Positions 2,549 to 13,281 of a DNA stretch of 22,749 bases are shown piece by piece (position 1 is the first letter of the stretch; each line of letters begins with the position of its first letter). A program made the position numbers and the translations under genes. This DNA is from a virus, in IMG/VR virus record IMGVR_UViG_3300020205_003169, positions 1 to 22,749 of that record; one strand, 5' to 3'. Below the pieces are notes generated by a model. That model worked only from the letters and a program-made list of their open reading frames with translations. It did not search any database and was not told where the DNA came from.

Positions 2549-3163
2549 ATGGCAATAAATATAATTCAAGGGTATAATCCATCTACTAATGAACCTATAG
2601 ATTCAAGGTTAGTAAAAGCAGATGCTACTGCTAGGTATAATATTGCTACCTATGAATCGTATAATGGACTATTAGTATACCAAAAAGACACTAAAGAACT
2701 ATATACTCTAGTAGATACAGGAAGTATAGGAAATAGTGCTGGGTGGCAATTAGTTGGGTTAAATATCAATACAGGTTCATTTGCAACTACAGGTTCAAAT
2801 ATATTTAAAGGAAATCAAATTATAACAGGTTCTATTAATATAACTGGAACTTACAATGGATATAGACCACTACCAACTCAAGCCTCACAACTCTCAGGAA
2901 GCGTCACAATGTCCTACGTAACTGACGGAGTATATGGTACATTACAAACTCCAATAACTGGAAGTTCTATTGTATCAGATACGGCATCTGCAGTTTTAGG
3001 GGTTTCAAATATAATGATCCACAGTCAATCTACGGCACCCACTTTTGGAAGTGATTTTAAGAAATTAACAGGAAGCTCAACATATGTAGCAGGAGTTAAT
3101 TATATTTTCAGTACATTTATATCAAGTAGCCAAATTATATATTCAATCCAACAAACCCCATAG
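2549..3163 (+). CDS. Tail fibre-associated structural protein
   Basis: A 204-residue protein. The first 75 residues (NIIQGYNPSTNEPIDSRLV onward, then YNGLLVYQKDTKELYTLVD) form a distinct domain that resembles the N-terminal region of phage proteins which report or present a parameter-like segment before a fibre repeat; its exact role is unknown. Residues about 75-105 contain TGSFATTGSNIFKGN and ITGSINITGTYNG, the Thr-Gly-Ser repeat shared across this region. The C-terminal half is beta-rich without a recognisable motif. It lies six bases after the previous fibre gene and two bases before the adhesin gene, so the three are almost certainly translated from one message. A structural role in the fibre complex is the best inference. 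Confidence 0.55.
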   Translation: MAINIIQGYNPSTNEPIDSRLVKADATARYNIATYESYNGLLVYQKDTKELYTLVDTGSIGNSAGWQLVGLNINTGSFATTGSNIFKGNQIITGSINITGTYNGYRPLPTQASQLSGSVTMSYVTDGVYGTLQTPITGSSIVSDTASAVLGVSNIMIHSQSTAPTFGSDFKKLTGSSTYVAGVNYIFSTFISSSQIIYSIQQTP

Positions 3164-3165
3164 TT

Positions 3166-5733
3166 ATGAGTATTAGAAGAATGTTTATTGCAAATCTAAA
3201 CTACATTAGAAGTGTAATACAGAGTTTTGTAAATTATACAGCAGTATTTAATGCTCTGTATGAAGCAGACTATTGTTTAGAACGTTCATTAGATGATTTG
3301 AACAAAAAGGATTTATTATATAATGCATCATTAGTAGTTACGCCAAATTCATATAAAGAAGGATTATTATATAATGTATTTCCAAGTAAGAAAAACATAC
3401 TCCTAAACTCAGGATATTTTAATTTATCTCCTTGGACAACAGGTGGTGCTACAATAACTCCTAATGCAGGACCAGCTCCTGATGGAACAAGTACAGCTTA
3501 CTTATATAATGATACAGGAGCGTCAGATAATGCTGGTGCAATAATTCAAGCATTTACAGCTACTTCTAATATACTAACTTGTTCTATATATTTAAAAGCA
3601 TCTGCAACAACTATTGATAGACGTTTAGCATTAAGAAACAGTACTACAGCAACGATTTTTGACACTTTAATTATAAACCTTAATACAGGAGTTTTTACAG
3701 GAGCAGGTTGGACTGTTATCTTATTACCTAATAATTGGTACAGATGTATATACACAAGAAGCACAGGTTTTAGTATTGGCAATACAATGCAGTTTTATAC
3801 AGCAAGAACAAGTGGTGCTGCTGTAGGTGCAACAGACCAATGGTTTGCTTGGGGAGCACAAGTTGAAGAGGGATATAATGTATCTACATACAGTCAAACT
3901 TATGCAAGTATAATTCCTACATTCACAAGAAATTCAACTGCTACAAGATTAAACAGTTCGGGTAATGTTGAGGTAGTACCATCTCAGAATTTACTCACAT
4001 ATTCAGAACAATTTAATAATGCAAATTGGGCAAAAAGCAATGCGTCAGTAACCGTAGACACTGCAATAGCACCTGATGGAACTCTTACAGCTGATTCACT
4101 TATTGAAGACACTGCATTATCAGTTCATTTTACTAATAATGCTCAAAACGGAACTGTAATAGCAAGTCAAAACTACACTTTTAGCGTGTACGTAAATAGA
4201 ACATCAACAAGAAATGTAAGCATATCTATAGGAGCATCACGTTTATATGCTAATTTTATTTCAAGTACAGGGGTTATTGGTTCTTATGGAGCAGATGGAA
4301 CTAGTTTTACTTTTGGCGCATACACATCTACTATAATAAATTCAAATTGGATTAGAGTTTCAGTTTCAGGAACTGCGTTAGTAACACAAGGATTATATTC
4401 AAGAGTTACATTAGATAATACTCCAACAGCAATAGGAGGAGTAGCTCCTACATATACAGGAAATGGAACAAGTGGAGTAATAATATGGGGAGCACAGACA
4501 ACAATGACATCATCAGTACAACCATACTTCCCTACAACAACAAGATTTAATATACCAAGAGCAAACTATTTAGTTGGAGACACTTGTCCTACATTGTTTT
4601 TAGAACAAGCAGCTACAAACAATATGCTGAACTCTGAAGATATATCTTTATGGACAGCAATAAACTCTCCTATAATTTCAACAAATGTTGCAATTGCACC
4701 AAATGGTACAATGACAGCAGATAGCATACAATCAAATAATTCTGCTCTTTTTCAAAGTGTGTTACAAACAAGGGCAATTACAAGTAATAATTTTAGCACT
4801 GCTGTTACTTTTTCAATTTTTGTAAAAAAAGAAGCATCTCCCGAAACAAGATATGGAGGAATGGCTTTAGATTTTGCAGCATCAGGTGCAATATTAAGAA
4901 AAGTTGCTTGGATAATAATTGATGCTTACAATGGAACTGCTGTACTGTCCTCAACTGCTCCAGCCAGTCCTGCAATTGCAGCGACAGTTAATAGTATTAA
5001 AGTAGAAGACTATAATACGTATTGGAGAATAAGTATGACAGCAACGGACAATGGTACTGCTCTTATAGCAACAAGCCCTTTTGTGTCAGCGGTTTATTAT
5101 GGAACATTATCTACTGATGGAACCACTAACAATGCAACAGTACCTGGTTCTGCAAGAACAATATGGGGTGCTCAATTAGAGGTTATATACACAGGCACAC
5201 TTAATACCACAGCATCAGGTCCAACATCATATATACCAACTACTACAGCTATAGTTACAAGAACAGCTGAAAGCTTAATAGTTCCAACCCCATATACAAG
5301 TAATCTTATTACATCATTAGGAGGAACTTGGTTGATTGATTTAAAAAATGCAATAGAATATATAAGAGATGTTCCTTCAGCAGGTAGTGGTATGTTTATT
5401 GGAGATGGAGCAGCAGCAAATATTGGTAATTCTATAGTAATACGTATAGCTGTTAGTACAATATCTTATCTTTCAATATATAAATACGTAAGCGGTGCAG
5501 CTACGCCGTTATATACTTTAACTAATGCAAATTCTAAAATAGTAATAAAATGGGATGGAATATATATTAATGTTTTTGTAAATGGAGTAAAAGTAGTTAC
5601 AAACAGTGTTTTTACAACTACTAATATGAATAATATGATTTATAGTGTACAATCTCCTACAAATATAAAAACAATGGCGTTATACCCCCTTCCATTAACA
5701 GATGCTCAATGTTTATCACTTTCAACTCAATAA
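3166..5733 (+). CDS. Large tail adhesin with three jelly-roll-like modules and LamG-like end
   Basis: An 855-residue protein, the largest in the window. After a helical N-terminal segment (about residues 1-70) come three homologous modules. Each opens with an NLL-type strand and an aPDGT-type turn (NILLNSGYFNLSPW near 77, NLLTYSEQFNNANW near 274, NNMLNSEDISLW near 485) and closes with an aromatic WGAQ strand (near 227, 440 and 666), usually followed by YxPTT. This is a carbohydrate-binding-like beta-sandwich repeat common in phage spikes and fibres. Between modules 1 and 2 is the TFTRNSTATR segment that often precedes such modules. Residues about 719-855 resemble a LamG/concanavalin-like domain (KWDGIYINVFVNGVKV, then YPLPLTDAQC). 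It is probably the receptor- or glycan-binding tail protein. No depolymerase active site was seen. Confidence 0.75.
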   Translation: MSIRRMFIANLNYIRSVIQSFVNYTAVFNALYEADYCLERSLDDLNKKDLLYNASLVVTPNSYKEGLLYNVFPSKKNILLNSGYFNLSPWTTGGATITPNAGPAPDGTSTAYLYNDTGASDNAGAIIQAFTATSNILTCSIYLKASATTIDRRLALRNSTTATIFDTLIINLNTGVFTGAGWTVILLPNNWYRCIYTRSTGFSIGNTMQFYTARTSGAAVGATDQWFAWGAQVEEGYNVSTYSQTYASIIPTFTRNSTATRLNSSGNVEVVPSQNLLTYSEQFNNANWAKSNASVTVDTAIAPDGTLTADSLIEDTALSVHFTNNAQNGTVIASQNYTFSVYVNRTSTRNVSISIGASRLYANFISSTGVIGSYGADGTSFTFGAYTSTIINSNWIRVSVSGTALVTQGLYSRVTLDNTPTAIGGVAPTYTGNGTSGVIIWGAQTTMTSSVQPYFPTTTRFNIPRANYLVGDTCPTLFLEQAATNNMLNSEDISLWTAINSPIISTNVAIAPNGTMTADSIQSNNSALFQSVLQTRAITSNNFSTAVTFSIFVKKEASPETRYGGMALDFAASGAILRKVAWIIIDAYNGTAVLSSTAPASPAIAATVNSIKVEDYNTYWRISMTATDNGTALIATSPFVSAVYYGTLSTDGTTNNATVPGSARTIWGAQLEVIYTGTLNTTASGPTSYIPTTTAIVTRTAESLIVPTPYTSNLITSLGGTWLIDLKNAIEYIRDVPSAGSGMFIGDGAAANIGNSIVIRIAVSTISYLSIYKYVSGAATPLYTLTNANSKIVIKWDGIYINVFVNGVKVVTNSVFTTTNMNNMIYSVQSPTNIKTMALYPLPLTDAQCLSLSTQ

Positions 5734-7220: not shown

Positions 7221-9299
7221 ATGGCTGAAACTCTTTTATCTCCAGGTGTACTAACCAGAGAAAATGACCAATCACAAATTACACAAGGCCCTATAACTGC
7301 AGGTGCAGCTATTGTTGGACCAACTGTAATGGGTCCGGTTAAAATACCTACTTTAGTTACTTCTTATAGTGACTATTTAAACAAATTTGGTGGATCTTTC
7401 ATTAGTGGAGGTGCATCATATGAATATTTAACTTCAATCTCTGCTTATAACTATTTCCAACAAGGAGGTACTACCTTATTAGTAACCAGAGCAGTAAGCG
7501 GAACATTCGCCCCAGCAACATCTAGTGCTAATAATAATATATCATCAGTAGTTGGAACATTCGCTTCTGCTTCTTTCACTATGTTAAACTCTAGTACAGC
7601 ATCTTGGAATCAAATCAAAGTAAATGCTACAACAGCTTTAGGTAGCATAAGCTATACAGTTTACAACTACCCATATGCTATTACAGGTTCATTTTTTGAT
7701 GCTGGAGATGTTATATACGTTGGAGTAGGTAATGGAACAAGTGATGGATTAAACTATGTAACTTCAACAGGAAGTTGGGCTGGATATGTATTAAGTGCTA
7801 TTAATACTGGAACTAGTAACATGGCTGGTAAACTTACAGCTTCATTAGCTACAAATGTAATTACTCTTAAATCTGATTTTACAGGTACTGTATATAATGG
7901 ATACTCTCTTACAAGTAGTTTTGGAGTTGGTACTCCAGTAAGTGTTGCATTTGCCGGAGGTTCAGATGGTACTCCTAGTACAGTATTCACTTTAGAAACT
8001 TTATCTCAAGGTGCTATTAATAGCAGCTACAGTATAGAAGGAACTAATAATACTTTACCTTCAGGTTCTGTAGATAATGTTAGATTTGAAATTGTAAATG
8101 TTAACTCAGGAAGTGGTACATTTGATTTATTAATCCGAAGAGGTGATGATAATATCAATTCTAAAGTAATTTTAGAACAATGGACAGGTTTATCATTAGA
8201 TCCTAACCAATCTAACTACATTGAAGCCGTAATTGGTAATCAATCTACAACTACTGATAGTGGATATGTTCAAACAACAGGTGATTATACTAATAAATCT
8301 AGATATGTAAGAGTAAAATCTGTTACTTATACTACTCCAAATTATTTCGATAATAATGGAAACCCAGTATCATCTTATACTTCATCTTTACCAATTAATC
8401 AAAGTGGTTCATTTAATGGTGCTACAGGAACAAATTGCGGAGTATATGGTTTATCTAATAGTGATTATACTTCTTCAATCTCTTTATTAAGCAACCAAGA
8501 CGAATTTAAATTCAATATTATTACTACACCAGGTATTACTGCTACAGCAGGAAATAGTGTAATTACATCATTAACTAACCTAGCTTCTAATAGAGGTGAT
8601 TGTATCGCTATTGTCGATATGTCAAAATTAGGTGATAATATTGCCACTGTAGTTTCTAACGCTACATCAGTAGATAGTAGTTATGCTGCTACATACTATC
8701 CATGGGTTCAAATTAGTGCTCCTAATACAGGAAAATTAACATGGGTTCCACCTTCAACAATCATTCCAAGTGTATTTGCTTACAATGATAGAATTTCTGC
8801 TCCATGGTTCGCACCTGCAGGATTTACAAGAGGTAGTTTAAGTGTAATTCAAGCTGAAAGAAAATTAGCTCCAACAGATAGAGATACATTATACGCTGGA
8901 AAAATTAACTCAATAGCTACATTCCCTGGACAAGGTGTTGTTGCTTACGGTCAGAAAACATTACAGAAAAAAGCATCTGCTTTAGATAGAATTAATGTAA
9001 GAAGATTGTTAATCGAGTTAAAATCATACATTGGTCAAGTTGCTAATAACTTAGTATTTGAACAAAACACGATCGCTACAAGAAATAGATTCTTAAGACA
9101 AGTTAATCCATATCTTGAATCAATTCAACAAAGACAAGGTTTATACGCTTATAAAGTAGTAATGGACGAAAGTAACAATACTGCAGATGTAATCGATAGA
9201 AATCAATTGCTAGGACAGATTTTTATCCAACCTACAAGAACTGCCGAGTTTGTTATATTAGATTTTAATGTTACACCAACAGGTGCAACTTTTTCATAA
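7221..9299 (+). CDS. Contractile tail sheath protein (T4 gp18-like)
   Basis: A 692-residue sheath protein; its subunits polymerise around the tail tube and contract to drive the tube through the host envelope. The N-terminus (LLSPGVLTRENDQS, then GPITAGAAIVGPTVMGPVKIP) is typical of sheath proteins, whose N-terminal arm links neighbouring subunits. The middle (about residues 90-440) is a Ser/Thr-rich variable region, presumably the protruding domains. The C-terminal core is conserved: RDTLYAGKINSIATFPGQGV (about 554-573), NVRRLLIELKSYIG (about 593-606) and QIFIQPTRTAEFVILDF (about 667-683). The gene is followed by the tube gene, as in T4. C-ending codons are somewhat more frequent here and in the tube gene than in the fibre genes, as expected for abundant proteins. 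Confidence 0.95.
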   Translation: MAETLLSPGVLTRENDQSQITQGPITAGAAIVGPTVMGPVKIPTLVTSYSDYLNKFGGSFISGGASYEYLTSISAYNYFQQGGTTLLVTRAVSGTFAPATSSANNNISSVVGTFASASFTMLNSSTASWNQIKVNATTALGSISYTVYNYPYAITGSFFDAGDVIYVGVGNGTSDGLNYVTSTGSWAGYVLSAINTGTSNMAGKLTASLATNVITLKSDFTGTVYNGYSLTSSFGVGTPVSVAFAGGSDGTPSTVFTLETLSQGAINSSYSIEGTNNTLPSGSVDNVRFEIVNVNSGSGTFDLLIRRGDDNINSKVILEQWTGLSLDPNQSNYIEAVIGNQSTTTDSGYVQTTGDYTNKSRYVRVKSVTYTTPNYFDNNGNPVSSYTSSLPINQSGSFNGATGTNCGVYGLSNSDYTSSISLLSNQDEFKFNIITTPGITATAGNSVITSLTNLASNRGDCIAIVDMSKLGDNIATVVSNATSVDSSYAATYYPWVQISAPNTGKLTWVPPSTIIPSVFAYNDRISAPWFAPAGFTRGSLSVIQAERKLAPTDRDTLYAGKINSIATFPGQGVVAYGQKTLQKKASALDRINVRRLLIELKSYIGQVANNLVFEQNTIATRNRFLRQVNPYLESIQQRQGLYAYKVVMDESNNTADVIDRNQLLGQIFIQPTRTAEFVILDFNVTPTGATFS

Positions 9300-9338: not shown

Positions 9339-9827
9339 ATGGCAGTATTAAACCCTAACGAAATAATGTTCACAGCATTCGAACCTAAAGTATCAAATAG
9401 GTTTATAATGTATATAGAAGGAATCCCAGCTTATATGATTAAGAAAGCTTCGGCTCCTGGATTCGACGCAGGTGAAATTACACTTGATCACATCAATGTT
9501 TACCGTAAAATAAAAGGTAAAGTAAGATGGAACGACATCACATTGTCATTATATGACCCAATTGCTCCAGCAGGATCACAGGCAGTAATGGAATGGATGA
9601 GACTATCTCACGAATCTGTAACAGGTAGAGATGGATATTCAGATTTCTATAAAAAAGACATTACAATGAATGTTCTAGGTCCTGTAGGTGATGTAGTTGG
9701 TGAATGGATCATAAAAGGTGCATTTGTTAAAACAGCAACATTTGGTGATTACGACTGGTCACAAGGTGAAGCAGCAGCAGAAATCAACTGTACACTTGCA
9801 ATGGATTATTGTATCTTAAACTTCTAA
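9339..9827 (+). CDS. Tail tube protein (T4 gp19-like)
   Basis: A 162-residue protein that stacks as hexameric rings to form the inner tail tube. It has the usual gp19 length and layout: an N-terminal strand region (FEPKVSNRFIMYIEGIPAYM, about residues 14-33), KASAPGFDAGEI (36-47), then KVRWNDITLSLYDPIAP (60-76), a helix-rich insert, and the conserved end segment GEWIIKGAFVKTATFGDYDW (about 118-137). It follows the sheath gene and is followed by a strong intrinsic terminator, so it may be made as a short abundant message in addition to sheath read-through. Confidence 0.95.
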   Translation: MAVLNPNEIMFTAFEPKVSNRFIMYIEGIPAYMIKKASAPGFDAGEITLDHINVYRKIKGKVRWNDITLSLYDPIAPAGSQAVMEWMRLSHESVTGRDGYSDFYKKDITMNVLGPVGDVVGEWIIKGAFVKTATFGDYDWSQGEAAAEINCTLAMDYCILNF

Positions 9828-9918: not shown

Positions 9919-10665
9919 ATGGAAAATCAAGTTACAAAACCAAAATTCCCTACAGAAATTGTAGAATTACCTTCAAAAGGTTTACTTTACTCAAAAGATA
10001 ATCCTCTTTCAAGCGGTACTATCGAAATGAAGTATATGGGAGCTAGAGAAGAAGATATTCTAACCAACTCAAATTACATTCAACAAGGTACAGTATTAGA
10101 TAAACTATTAGATTCACTTATTGTATCTAAAGTAGATTTAAAAGATATGATAATTGGAGACAAAAATGCTATCTTAATTGCTTCTCGTGTTTTAGGATAC
10201 GGTCAAGATTATGAATTCGAATCAGGAGGAAAAACATACAAAGTAGATTTAACTACTCTAACAGATAAAGAATTACCTGAAGATACAGATTATACTAATG
10301 GTAATGAATTTTTCTTCACCTTACCTGCATCTCAACTGGAAGTTGGATATAAAATTCTAACACATGGTGATGAAGCAGCGATAGAAGCGGAATTAAAAGG
10401 ACTGAAAAAATTATTCCCTAACGGTGGTGCACCTGAAATCTCTACACGTTTAAAGTACATTATTACTTCGGTTAATGGAGATAAAGAAAGAAAAACAGTA
10501 AGAGAATTTGTTGATAACGAAATATTAGCAAGAGACTCAAGAGCATTGAGACAAGAAATAAAAAGAATATCTCCAGATATTAATTTAACTATTAAAGGTG
10601 ATGAAGGGGAGGACATCGCTGTACCAATCAGCCTTAACTTTTTTTGGCCTGACCTCAACGTATAG
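9919..10665 (+). CDS. T4 gp26-type baseplate protein; probable tail-assembly chaperone
   Basis: A 248-residue protein of the T4 baseplate protein family typified by gp26. Recognisable family segments are ELPSKGLLY (residues 16-24) and IEMKYMGAREEDIL (35-48), followed by a helical region. In T4 this product is needed for hub assembly. Here the gene lies between tail tube and tape measure and overlaps the next reading frame, the position and layout of the tail-assembly chaperone pair (lambda G/GT type) in other tailed phages. Near the end, codons AAC TTT TTT TGG create a run of seven T's (10639-10645), five codons before the stop, where ribosomes could shift into the downstream frame. The family call is well supported; the chaperone role is inferred from gene order. 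Confidence 0.82.
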   Translation: MENQVTKPKFPTEIVELPSKGLLYSKDNPLSSGTIEMKYMGAREEDILTNSNYIQQGTVLDKLLDSLIVSKVDLKDMIIGDKNAILIASRVLGYGQDYEFESGGKTYKVDLTTLTDKELPEDTDYTNGNEFFFTLPASQLEVGYKILTHGDEAAIEAELKGLKKLFPNGGAPEISTRLKYIITSVNGDKERKTVREFVDNEILARDSRALRQEIKRISPDINLTIKGDEGEDIAVPISLNFFWPDLNV

Positions 10666-10915
10666 AATAAATTTATTTTCCCAAATAAATGAAATAGTAT
10701 TTCATGGTAAAGGAGGATATACTTGGGATACTGTTTATGAAATGCCTATATGGCTTCGAACATTCACTTTTAATAAGTTAAAAGAATTTTATGATAAAGA
10801 ACAAGCCCAAATAGATGCTCAAAATAATCAGTTAACTAACAAAAATGTTAATGAAGTAGCTAGACCTAATATACCTCAAGCAAACACATATAATGCTAAA
10901 GTGCCCACTAAATAG
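10601..10915 (+). CDS. Overlapping small baseplate/chaperone protein, likely made by frameshift
   Basis: A 104-residue frame overlapping the end of the gp26-type gene by 65 bases and lying +1 to it. The region from RINLFSQINEIVFHGKGGY (about residues 22-40) through VYEMPIWLRTFTFNKLKEFY (about 45-64) resembles small baseplate-hub proteins of T4-like phages encoded at this spot; the C-terminus is Asn/Gln-rich and looks disordered. ATG at 10601 (or GTG at 10598) could start an independent product, but neither has a well-spaced ribosome binding site, and residues before RINLF look unlike a conserved N-terminus. The alternative is translation by frameshift at 10639-10645, fusing this segment to the upstream protein. 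The stop codon lies inside the following terminator hairpin. Confidence 0.75.
   Translation: MKGRTSLYQSALTFFGLTSTYRINLFSQINEIVFHGKGGYTWDTVYEMPIWLRTFTFNKLKEFYDKEQAQIDAQNNQLTNKNVNEVARPNIPQANTYNAKVPTK
10639..10645 (+). promoter_or_regulatory. Candidate programmed frameshift site
   Basis: Seven consecutive T's read in the upstream frame as TTT TTT T(GG). A +1 slip, or a -2 slip, of tRNA-Phe keeps full pairing and moves the ribosome into the frame of the overlapping downstream gene. A -1 slip would not. The resulting junction would be ISLNFF joined to GLTSTYRINLF. Confidence 0.5.
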
Positions 10916-10962: not shown

Positions 10963-13281
10963 ATGGCAGACAATATAGATGATATTAACAAACAAATAGG
11001 TGATCTTAGAAAACAACTAGGTCAATCCCCTTTATCTCTTTTTGATCAAAAAGATTTAGAAAAAGCAAAACTAGCTTTAAGTGGTTTAAGAAACGAACTT
11101 AGAGAGATGAATAGTGATTTAAACTATATTGCTCAAAGTTTTAAAGATAGTGTCGCTGAATTATCTAAACAAAATGCTCAATTAACTGTAGCACGAAATT
11201 CTTTAAAGGGTATATCTAATATTGCTCGTGATTTAGTAGATTATAGAAAAGGAGAAGTTGATTTATCTGAAAAGCAATTAAAAAATCTTCAAAGGCAAGC
11301 TAAACTTAAATTTGATGATTTACAATCTACTTTAAGAAGTGGTAAATTAACAACAGCCCAAGCTAATGAAGTAAAAGATACTATAGCCCAACAAGAAGCC
11401 TTTAATACTGCATTAAATAGAACCTTAGAACTTCAAGCTGAAGTAAATAGAGATATTGGGTTAATGGGAGTAGGATTAGAAGGTGCTGGTAAATTCTTAG
11501 AAAAATTAGGATTTGTAGGTATATCTAAACCTATAACAGATGCTATTCAAGCTACTAAAAGAGCTAGATTTGAATATAAGCTAAATCAAGATGCTATACA
11601 AGATATAGGAAAAGAGATGGCGGCTCTAAATAAAAGAAATCTATCTGATCTCCAGATAAGGTATGGTTTTGGGGGAAAAGAACTTAAAAATCTATTAGCT
11701 CAAAAAGATGCTTTAATTGAACAAAATAAGGAATTAGATAAAAAAACATCTAAATATCGAAATATAGCAATAGCTTTAAAGGAACAATTTACTTTAGTAA
11801 ATATGACCGATGCTATTATAACTAAAGTTGTTCAAAGTTTCTTTAAACTAGATGAAGCTCAAACCAAATTTAAAAATCTAACAGGAGGTACTATTCCGTT
11901 GTTAGATCAAATGAATGGTAGATTAATATCTAGTATTGACTACATTCAGACCGCGGCGTCTTTAACTGAACAAACCGGAATGAACGCCGCAGCTATATTC
12001 ACTCCTGATACACTAGCATCAGCAGCTGAAATGGTTAAAGCTATGGGTATGACTCAAGATCAAGCTAATAGAGCAGCTATCATGTCCCAAGTTAATGGTC
12101 AAACCCTTGATCAAATGAATGCTTCTATTAAGCAAGGAACTAAAGAGCATAACGCTACTAATAGATCAGCTTTAGCTCAAGGAGCTATAATGAGGGAAGT
12201 ATATAGTACTTCAACAGCTCTTGCTGCATCTTTAGGAAATAGTACTAAACGTATAACAGAAGCTGCTACTAGAGCTAAAGATTTAGGATTAAATCTAGCA
12301 GAAGTAGATGGAATAGCAAACTCATTATTAAATGTTGAACAATCAATTGCATCGGAATTTGAATATGAAGTAATATCAGGTAAGCAAATTAATTTAGAGG
12401 CTGCTAGATACTATGCTTTAACTAATCAAACCGAAAAATTAACCAAAGAAATTGGTAAAAACCAAGCTATAGTAAATTCATTCGCTTCAGGAAATAGAAT
12501 AGAACAGGAAGCCGCAGCTAAAGTATTAGGAGTATCTAGGGATAAATTAGCTGAAATGTATATGGCTGATCAGAGAAGACTTGGTCTTACTGATGCTCAA
12601 ATAGCTAAGAATATGAAAATGCAAGAAGGTGATATTAAACGATTATCCCTTCAAGAAAGTATCAATACCTCTATTAATAAGATGACGGAATTATTAGCTG
12701 GCCCTTTAGAAGCAATGGCTCAATTATTATCTAATTCAGTAGTGCTATATGGTATAATGGGAGCTATAGGCGCTATAGTAGCAACTCAATTAATAAGCGG
12801 AATAGCACAATTTGGAATGGGAGTAGCATCAGCCATACCTAAATTATTAATAATGTCAGGTATTATGACTGAAGGAGCAATAGCCTCTATGACAACAGCT
12901 TCAGCTTTAACTTTAGGGTTAGGTACAATAGCTATTATAGCTGGTATAGCGGCATTAATGGGAGCTTTTTCAAGTGCTCAATCAACTGCCGCATCCTCTA
13001 CAGTACCTGGTCTAGCAGTTGGTGGAACAGTGACAGGAGCAGGAAGTATAATGGTAGGTGAAAATGGACCTGAAATATTATCTGCACAACCTGGAGCTAC
13101 TGTAACTCCATTAACTAAAATAAATGCTGCTACAGTTCAATCCTCTCAAGCTGAACCAAAATTTACTTGGGATTATGAAAAAATGGCTCAAGAAAATGCT
13201 AGAGCTATAGCAGGAATTTCACTTAAAATGGGCCAAACTGAATTAAACACTCAACTTGGAATAGGTACACGTAAAATATAA
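10963..13281 (+). CDS. Tail tape measure protein
   Basis: A 772-residue protein that sets tail length and travels through the tube at injection. The first 300 residues are strongly helical and coiled-coil-like (for example IDDINKQIGDLRKQLG and the Lys/Gln-rich segment near 70-160). Residues about 590-670 hold hydrophobic Gly/Ala-rich helices (VVLYGIMGAIGAIVATQLI, TLGLGTIAIIAGIAALMGAF) that could enter the host membrane. Near residue 682 is GLAVGGTV followed by GSIMVGENGPEIL, a C-terminal sequence typical of tape measure proteins. It follows the chaperone-like pair, as expected. At 772 residues it would span roughly 110 nm if extended as a helix at 1.5 angstrom per residue, similar to T4-type tails. 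Confidence 0.88.
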   Translation: MADNIDDINKQIGDLRKQLGQSPLSLFDQKDLEKAKLALSGLRNELREMNSDLNYIAQSFKDSVAELSKQNAQLTVARNSLKGISNIARDLVDYRKGEVDLSEKQLKNLQRQAKLKFDDLQSTLRSGKLTTAQANEVKDTIAQQEAFNTALNRTLELQAEVNRDIGLMGVGLEGAGKFLEKLGFVGISKPITDAIQATKRARFEYKLNQDAIQDIGKEMAALNKRNLSDLQIRYGFGGKELKNLLAQKDALIEQNKELDKKTSKYRNIAIALKEQFTLVNMTDAIITKVVQSFFKLDEAQTKFKNLTGGTIPLLDQMNGRLISSIDYIQTAASLTEQTGMNAAAIFTPDTLASAAEMVKAMGMTQDQANRAAIMSQVNGQTLDQMNASIKQGTKEHNATNRSALAQGAIMREVYSTSTALAASLGNSTKRITEAATRAKDLGLNLAEVDGIANSLLNVEQSIASEFEYEVISGKQINLEAARYYALTNQTEKLTKEIGKNQAIVNSFASGNRIEQEAAAKVLGVSRDKLAEMYMADQRRLGLTDAQIAKNMKMQEGDIKRLSLQESINTSINKMTELLAGPLEAMAQLLSNSVVLYGIMGAIGAIVATQLISGIAQFGMGVASAIPKLLIMSGIMTEGAIASMTTASALTLGLGTIAIIAGIAALMGAFSSAQSTAASSTVPGLAVGGTVTGAGSIMVGENGPEILSAQPGATVTPLTKINAATVQSSQAEPKFTWDYEKMAQENARAIAGISLKMGQTELNTQLGIGTRKI

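Follow-up and report, generated by a model that had tools for sequence, protein, structure and literature searches.

A programmed +1 frameshift very probably yields the long form of a tail assembly chaperone (TAC-NC) from one two-frame locus in the 22.7-kb virus record analysed here, the whole of which is referred to as the window and which carries contractile-tail genes. According to the mechanism proposed, most ribosomes would read positions 9919-10665 and thereby produce the short form TAC-N, while a minority would slip one base forward with peptidyl-tRNA-Phe on UUU within the U-run 10639-10645, whereby tRNA-Phe would re-pair with the overlapping UUU and GGC would enter the A site. Translation would then run on to position 10915, and by analogy to lambda G/GT both forms may bind the tape measure and recruit the tail tube. 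The frame relation of the two ORFs, its conservation, the lack of a conserved start for the second ORF, a conserved UUU_Y and the homology to chaperones were observed directly; that slippage occurs, that it is directed to +1 and that it concerns a minority of ribosomes we infer from these sequence features.

The tail tube gene, both chaperone frames and the putative tape measure gene locate to the plus strand of the window. The contractile-tail set comprises the sheath gene (7221-9299) and a gp19-like tail tube gene (9339-9827; phrog_4542 tail tube, 1.7e-23), the latter being the upstream neighbour of the frame-0 gene for the 248-residue short form, a member of the T4 gp26/gp51 family (9919-10665, with the stop TAG at 10663-10665). 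Inspection of this gp26-like gene confirmed that it is overlapped by an ORF in the +1 frame (10598-10915), which is open from position 10589 and has candidate starts GTG/ATG at 10598-10603. The downstream neighbour (10963-13281, 772 amino acids) is the probable tape measure gene as judged by position and length; profile searches gave no family match for this ORF itself, and the ORF matching it in Flavobacterium phage immuto is annotated as tail tape measure. Two overlapping frames hence sit between the tail tube and tape measure genes, as in loci of the lambda G/GT type, and the order of tail tube, overlapping pair and tape measure put forward in the initial annotation is borne out by both the window and the gene order of immuto. 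Neither an Rfam match nor a tRNA was found within the window; a GIY-YIG domain protein is encoded in its upstream part (645-1361; PF01541, 4.9e-6).

The putative slippery site is a run of seven T's (T7) at 10639-10645, read as TTT TTT T(GG). The initial annotation had correctly placed this run within TTT TTT TGG, and its distance of five codons to the stop is close, TGG being the sixth codon before it. As it had reasoned, a slip by +1 or by -2 on T7 allows for perfect re-pairing of tRNA-Phe and joins ISLNFF to GLTSTYR. After a +1 slip the next codon is GGC at 10646, from where the C-terminal domain (TAC-C) is read in the +1 frame up to 10915, the fused product of 331 amino acids being encoded by 9919-10644 plus 10646-10912. 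The run is part of a conserved 16-mer, CTTTTTTTGGCCTGAC (10638-10653), within which a TGA (10650-10652) closes the -1 frame. By itself a T7 is unsurprising in a window this AT-rich, where 13 occurrences on both strands were counted versus 25 expected, and it is the conservation of the site which exceeds chance. The 16-mer is present in at least 120 IMG/VR contigs, whereby in 115 of these it lies in the correct frame within such an overlap and in the other 5 at the end of a chaperone ORF with the downstream ORF being unrecognised.

Profile matches place the first protein in the T4 gp26/gp51 family (phrog_150, 4.2e-6). The profile phrog_150 (282 positions) matches both T4 gp26 (14-235) and T4 gp51 (13-280), which are similar to each other, and gp51 therefore consists of a gp26-like domain and a C-terminal domain. 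This corrects the earlier statement that T4 is not known to have a pair of this kind, as it encodes the homologues gp26 and gp51, the latter with an additional C-terminal domain. The same profile is matched by 50 of 50 fused relatives, and PF12322 by 48 of 68 family members (best 8.9e-22), the window protein itself giving no PF12322 match. Reading across the shift lengthened the phrog_150 match from profile positions 3-150 to 3-265 of 282 in one relative (L005) and from 11-214 to 11-265 in another (L052); the match of L121 was lengthened slightly and those of L136 and L205 were not improved. Profile comparison of the C-terminal domains related the +1 family to relatives using a -1 frame (E 4.1e-7) and these in turn to the gp51 C-terminus (E 1.4e-9), while the direct comparison of the +1 family domain with T4 gp51 was not significant (HHalign probability 2.2%); homology of the +1 family domain to gp51 is hence suggested through the -1 relatives only. 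Searching Pfam and PDB sequences with the pair encoded in the window returned nothing reliable.

Structure prediction with AlphaFold was carried out for the two halves separately, on alignments restricted to rows from part of the sources, and yielded a TAC-N model with a pLDDT of 94.4 and a helical TAC-C model with a pLDDT of 74. Among 652 PDB chains aligned, residues 1-96 of the TAC-N model were found to be closest to 3klu (YqbN; Z 6.0), which we take to be an XkdN-type prophage chaperone, and to the HK97 chaperone 2ob9 (Z 5.2), the next Z being 2.1. The predicted TAC-N fold would accordingly be that of known tail assembly chaperones, a likeness confined to the N-terminal 96 residues and of modest Z (5-6); the support from the fold is moderate, because Foldseek alone gave no PDB match to the TAC-N model under E 0.001.

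Conservation of the junction was followed among relatives of increasing distance. In 78 of the 80 nearest IMG/VR relatives inspected the second domain overlaps in the +1 frame, and similarity usually starts directly after the T-run. The nearest relatives, more distant ones and the contigs with the exact 16-mer amount to 336 loci with 265 distinct junctions; the share of T7 among these is inflated by the loci retrieved through the 16-mer, the 80 nearest and the sets obtained with the LR756508 and Mel-JY01 proteins having been retrieved by protein instead. The +1 overlap was found in 261 of the 265 distinct junctions, and in each of these 261 the same Phe site carries a UUU in frame 0 with U or C as the next base, a count that does not equal 261 trials, because related sequences are not independent. 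The sites read TTTTTTTGG (235 junctions), TTCTTTTGG (12), TTTCTTTGG (4) and CTTTTTTGG (3), with TTTTTTTTC and TTTTTTTAC occurring twice and TTTCTATGG, TTTTTTTAT and TTTCTATTC once each. In a non-redundant set of 185 junctions, with identities below 85%, 358 stops interrupt the +1 frame within the 24 codons upstream of the site and none within the 23 codons downstream, frame 0 shows the opposite pattern (0 upstream, 541 downstream), and in 89% the -1 frame is shut by a TGA just past the run. T-run and frame relation thus persist across the alignment, with conservation of the +1 frame being seen past the run but not ahead of it, as had been predicted for a frameshift. Together with gene order, family and fold matches, this junction conservation supports the earlier assignment of the two frames as a pair of the G/GT type.

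While the initial annotation left the choice between +1 and -2 open, and T7 indeed fits both, the natural site variants now permit a preference. That ribosomes produce the same fusion by slipping -2, the direction reported for Mu, is very unlikely: T7 does allow tRNA-Phe to re-pair perfectly at -2 and the same frame would be reached, but +1 is preferred because variants such as TTC TTT TGG and TTT CTA TGG re-pair at +1 and not at -2. In TTC TTT TGG (12 junctions) only the second codon can slip, by +1 to UUU, as -2 would need pairing to UCU, and in TTT CTA TGG/TTC (2 junctions) only the first codon can slip, by +1 to UUC. TTC TTT CGT of Streptococcus phage GXN1, which likewise re-pairs at +1 and not at -2, and TTT CTA TTC of LR756508 agree with +1. 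Re-pairing of the Mu type is hence unavailable at some sites, failing at the variants TTCTTTTGG, TTTCTATGG and TTTCTATTC, and a canonical -1 shift on X_XXY_YYZ does not apply either, given that TAC-C is encoded in +1. Every site fits a single rule, a +1 movement of tRNA-Phe on UUU_Y, whereby the argument on direction presumes a single mechanism across the whole family. The phages SP-15 (L084), LIS04 (L085) and GXN1 (L086) also have their second domain in the +1 frame and share a further conserved element, CCCGATT, located a few codons downstream of the Phe codons; where precisely these three would slip is less certain.

That the second ORF is instead an independent gene, with translation beginning at GTG 10598 or at ATG 10601, or through translational coupling, and without any frameshift, is very unlikely. 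This reading draws on the start codons at 10598-10603, which are present in the window and in many close relatives, on the purine-rich stretch at 10604-10612 and on four relatives in which the second domain is encoded separately and starts at an ATG of its own. The starts are, on the other hand, unconserved across the family: 83 of the 261 overlapping junctions lack any ATG, GTG or TTG ahead of the slip in the +1 ORF, and in several a +1 stop lies one codon ahead of it, among them L001, a relative sharing 97% identity with the window in the first protein, where a TAA located one codon ahead of the run shuts the +1 frame. Moreover, conservation of the +1 frame starts at the T-run, and the separate genes accompany a broken T7. 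By eye, the candidate starts indeed have no good ribosome-binding site, as had been noted; as evidence this absence is weak, because the genes starting at 9919 and 10963 are without an obvious one too.

With the +1 ribosomal slip as the preferred reading, slippage of RNA polymerase on T7, by which some mRNAs would lose one U or gain two, is highly improbable: homopolymer runs are its classical substrate, but 18 junctions with runs of at most four T's still keep the frame relation, and in the variants that favour +1 over -2 the runs are too short for it. A run of seven is short for slippage by bacterial polymerases. Hardly any credence is given to the idea that the frames are ordinary overlapping ones, with the T-run as a by-product of dual coding for Phe-Phe-Trp-Pro-Asp and Phe-Gly-Leu-Thr, which fixes most bases of GGCCTGAC, TTT being the common Phe codon (439 TTT vs 135 TTC), since dual coding that begins at the run and is absent before it is what a frameshift predicts, and a start is often missing from the second frame.

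A search for stimulators of the shift revealed no conserved downstream RNA structure in the junction set (mean z -0.5). Upstream, the purine-rich AAGGGGAGG (10604-10612) is Shine-Dalgarno-like (SD-like) and lies 27-35 bases before the T-run; the best anti-SD energy of this region is -8.7 kcal/mol, the remainder of the gene reaching -2.95 kcal/mol, and the peak is located 31-34 bases upstream of the slip. In the window as well as in its relatives, the stretch about 30 bases before the slip shows a strong codon bias to GGG and GAG. AAGGGGAGG is a possible stimulator of the shift; its long distance to the slip and its retention in the four unshifted loci speak against such a role. A role as internal start of the +1 ORF was rejected, as relatives such as L008 keep the element while their +1 frame contains a stop and lacks a start.

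Separately encoded second domains with their own ATG, an arrangement that the initial annotation regarded as speaking against a frameshift, were found in 4 of the 265 junctions (L025, L035, L125 and L130), yet T7 is broken there, which supports the link of the T-run to the fusion. The sites of these loci read TTCTTTTGG, TTCTTCTGG, TTCTTGTAT and TTCCTTTGG, whereby T7 is lost in all four and UUU_Y in three, L025 retaining UUU_U despite its split genes. In L025 a gene for a GIY-YIG endonuclease of 204 amino acids (2943-3557; PF01541, 2.4e-6) lies between the two chaperone frames and the second domain starts at its own ATG (MLEFFGIT...); L035 looks like a decayed version of this arrangement. The two loci suggest the insertion of a mobile gene, that of the endonuclease, at the shift site or beside it. 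In L125 and L130 the second gene is separate, begins at an ATG of its own a few bases past the first stop and encodes a new N-terminus; its protein may act in trans. The split loci occupy at least two places in the tree. As four relatives do without it, the fusion is not strictly essential, and judged from these loci the T-run is lost where fusion is unneeded.

Frameshifting in chaperone genes and T4-like chaperone genes are already published. A 2016 review described G-T frameshifting as conserved 'except T4' (PMC5009743), T4 gp26 and gp51 were listed as hub assembly chaperones (PMC3004832), -1 chaperone shifts were reported for Vandenendeviridae (PMC12846349), and T4-like chaperone genes were reportedly identified by Vladimirov, Gautam & Davidson 2022. 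For the tail chaperone gene of the archaeal myovirus HSTV-2 a shift was considered 'very likely' to be +1 (PMC5009743), the direction found here, with the host domain being different. Listeria phage PSA, cited in the initial annotation as a +1 precedent among chaperones, does not serve as one, as its +1 shifts occur in the capsid and tail-shaft genes (PMC5009743). In lambda gpG/gpGT the shift is -1, whereas it would be +1 here. E. coli RF2 (prfB, CUU_UGA) likewise involves a +1 slip of peptidyl-tRNA, and a few family sites read TTT CTT TGG; in RF2, however, a stop occupies the A site, which here holds a sense codon, mostly TGG, and the SD about 3 bases upstream has no conserved counterpart at this spacing. 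A literature search whose coverage left out most subscription journals returned no report of the +1 group, and the +1 direction across a large group, beside -1 relatives, may be new.

The closest systems are T4 and the T4-like phages with a -1 shift, which belong to the same family (PF12322, phrog_150) and have a homologous C-terminal domain. T4 possesses two separate genes, whereas the frames overlap at +1 here, and the -1 chaperones shift at the same Phe-Phe position with their domain in the -1 instead of the +1 frame. Among the 14 inspected relatives with the C-terminal domain in the -1 frame, 8 have the site T_TTT_TTC; the -1 relatives include the cyanophages S-PM2 and P-SSM2 as well as ValKK3, Astolliot, Bhz51, avDM12, PA5oct and Atu_ph07. 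A tree of the first domain separates most -1 members, together with T4, from the +1 members, and PA5oct and Atu_ph07, both -1, sit on a long branch among the latter; the direction is strongly clustered in this tree, while deep placements are uncertain. It appears likely that one family has arrived at three solutions at the same joint, namely -1 (most T4-like phages), +1 (a large environmental group and the SP-15-like phages) and separate genes, a class which consists of the homologous pair of T4 and the four +1-group members with own starts, two of these having a GIY-YIG endonuclease gene or its remnant in between. The direction of frameshifting would then have switched in evolution with the protein joint being kept, and the +1 site would need little beyond UUU_Y.

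Few programmed +1 frameshifts are known in bacteria and their phages, and long-tailed phages mostly use -1 for the shift in their tail chaperones. Being conserved in many environmental genomes, with natural variants and four natural split-gene 'knock-outs', the present site offers ready material on what a bacterial +1 site requires. The annotation of immuto is corrected as well, in which just 36 residues of the C-terminal domain are called as a gene.
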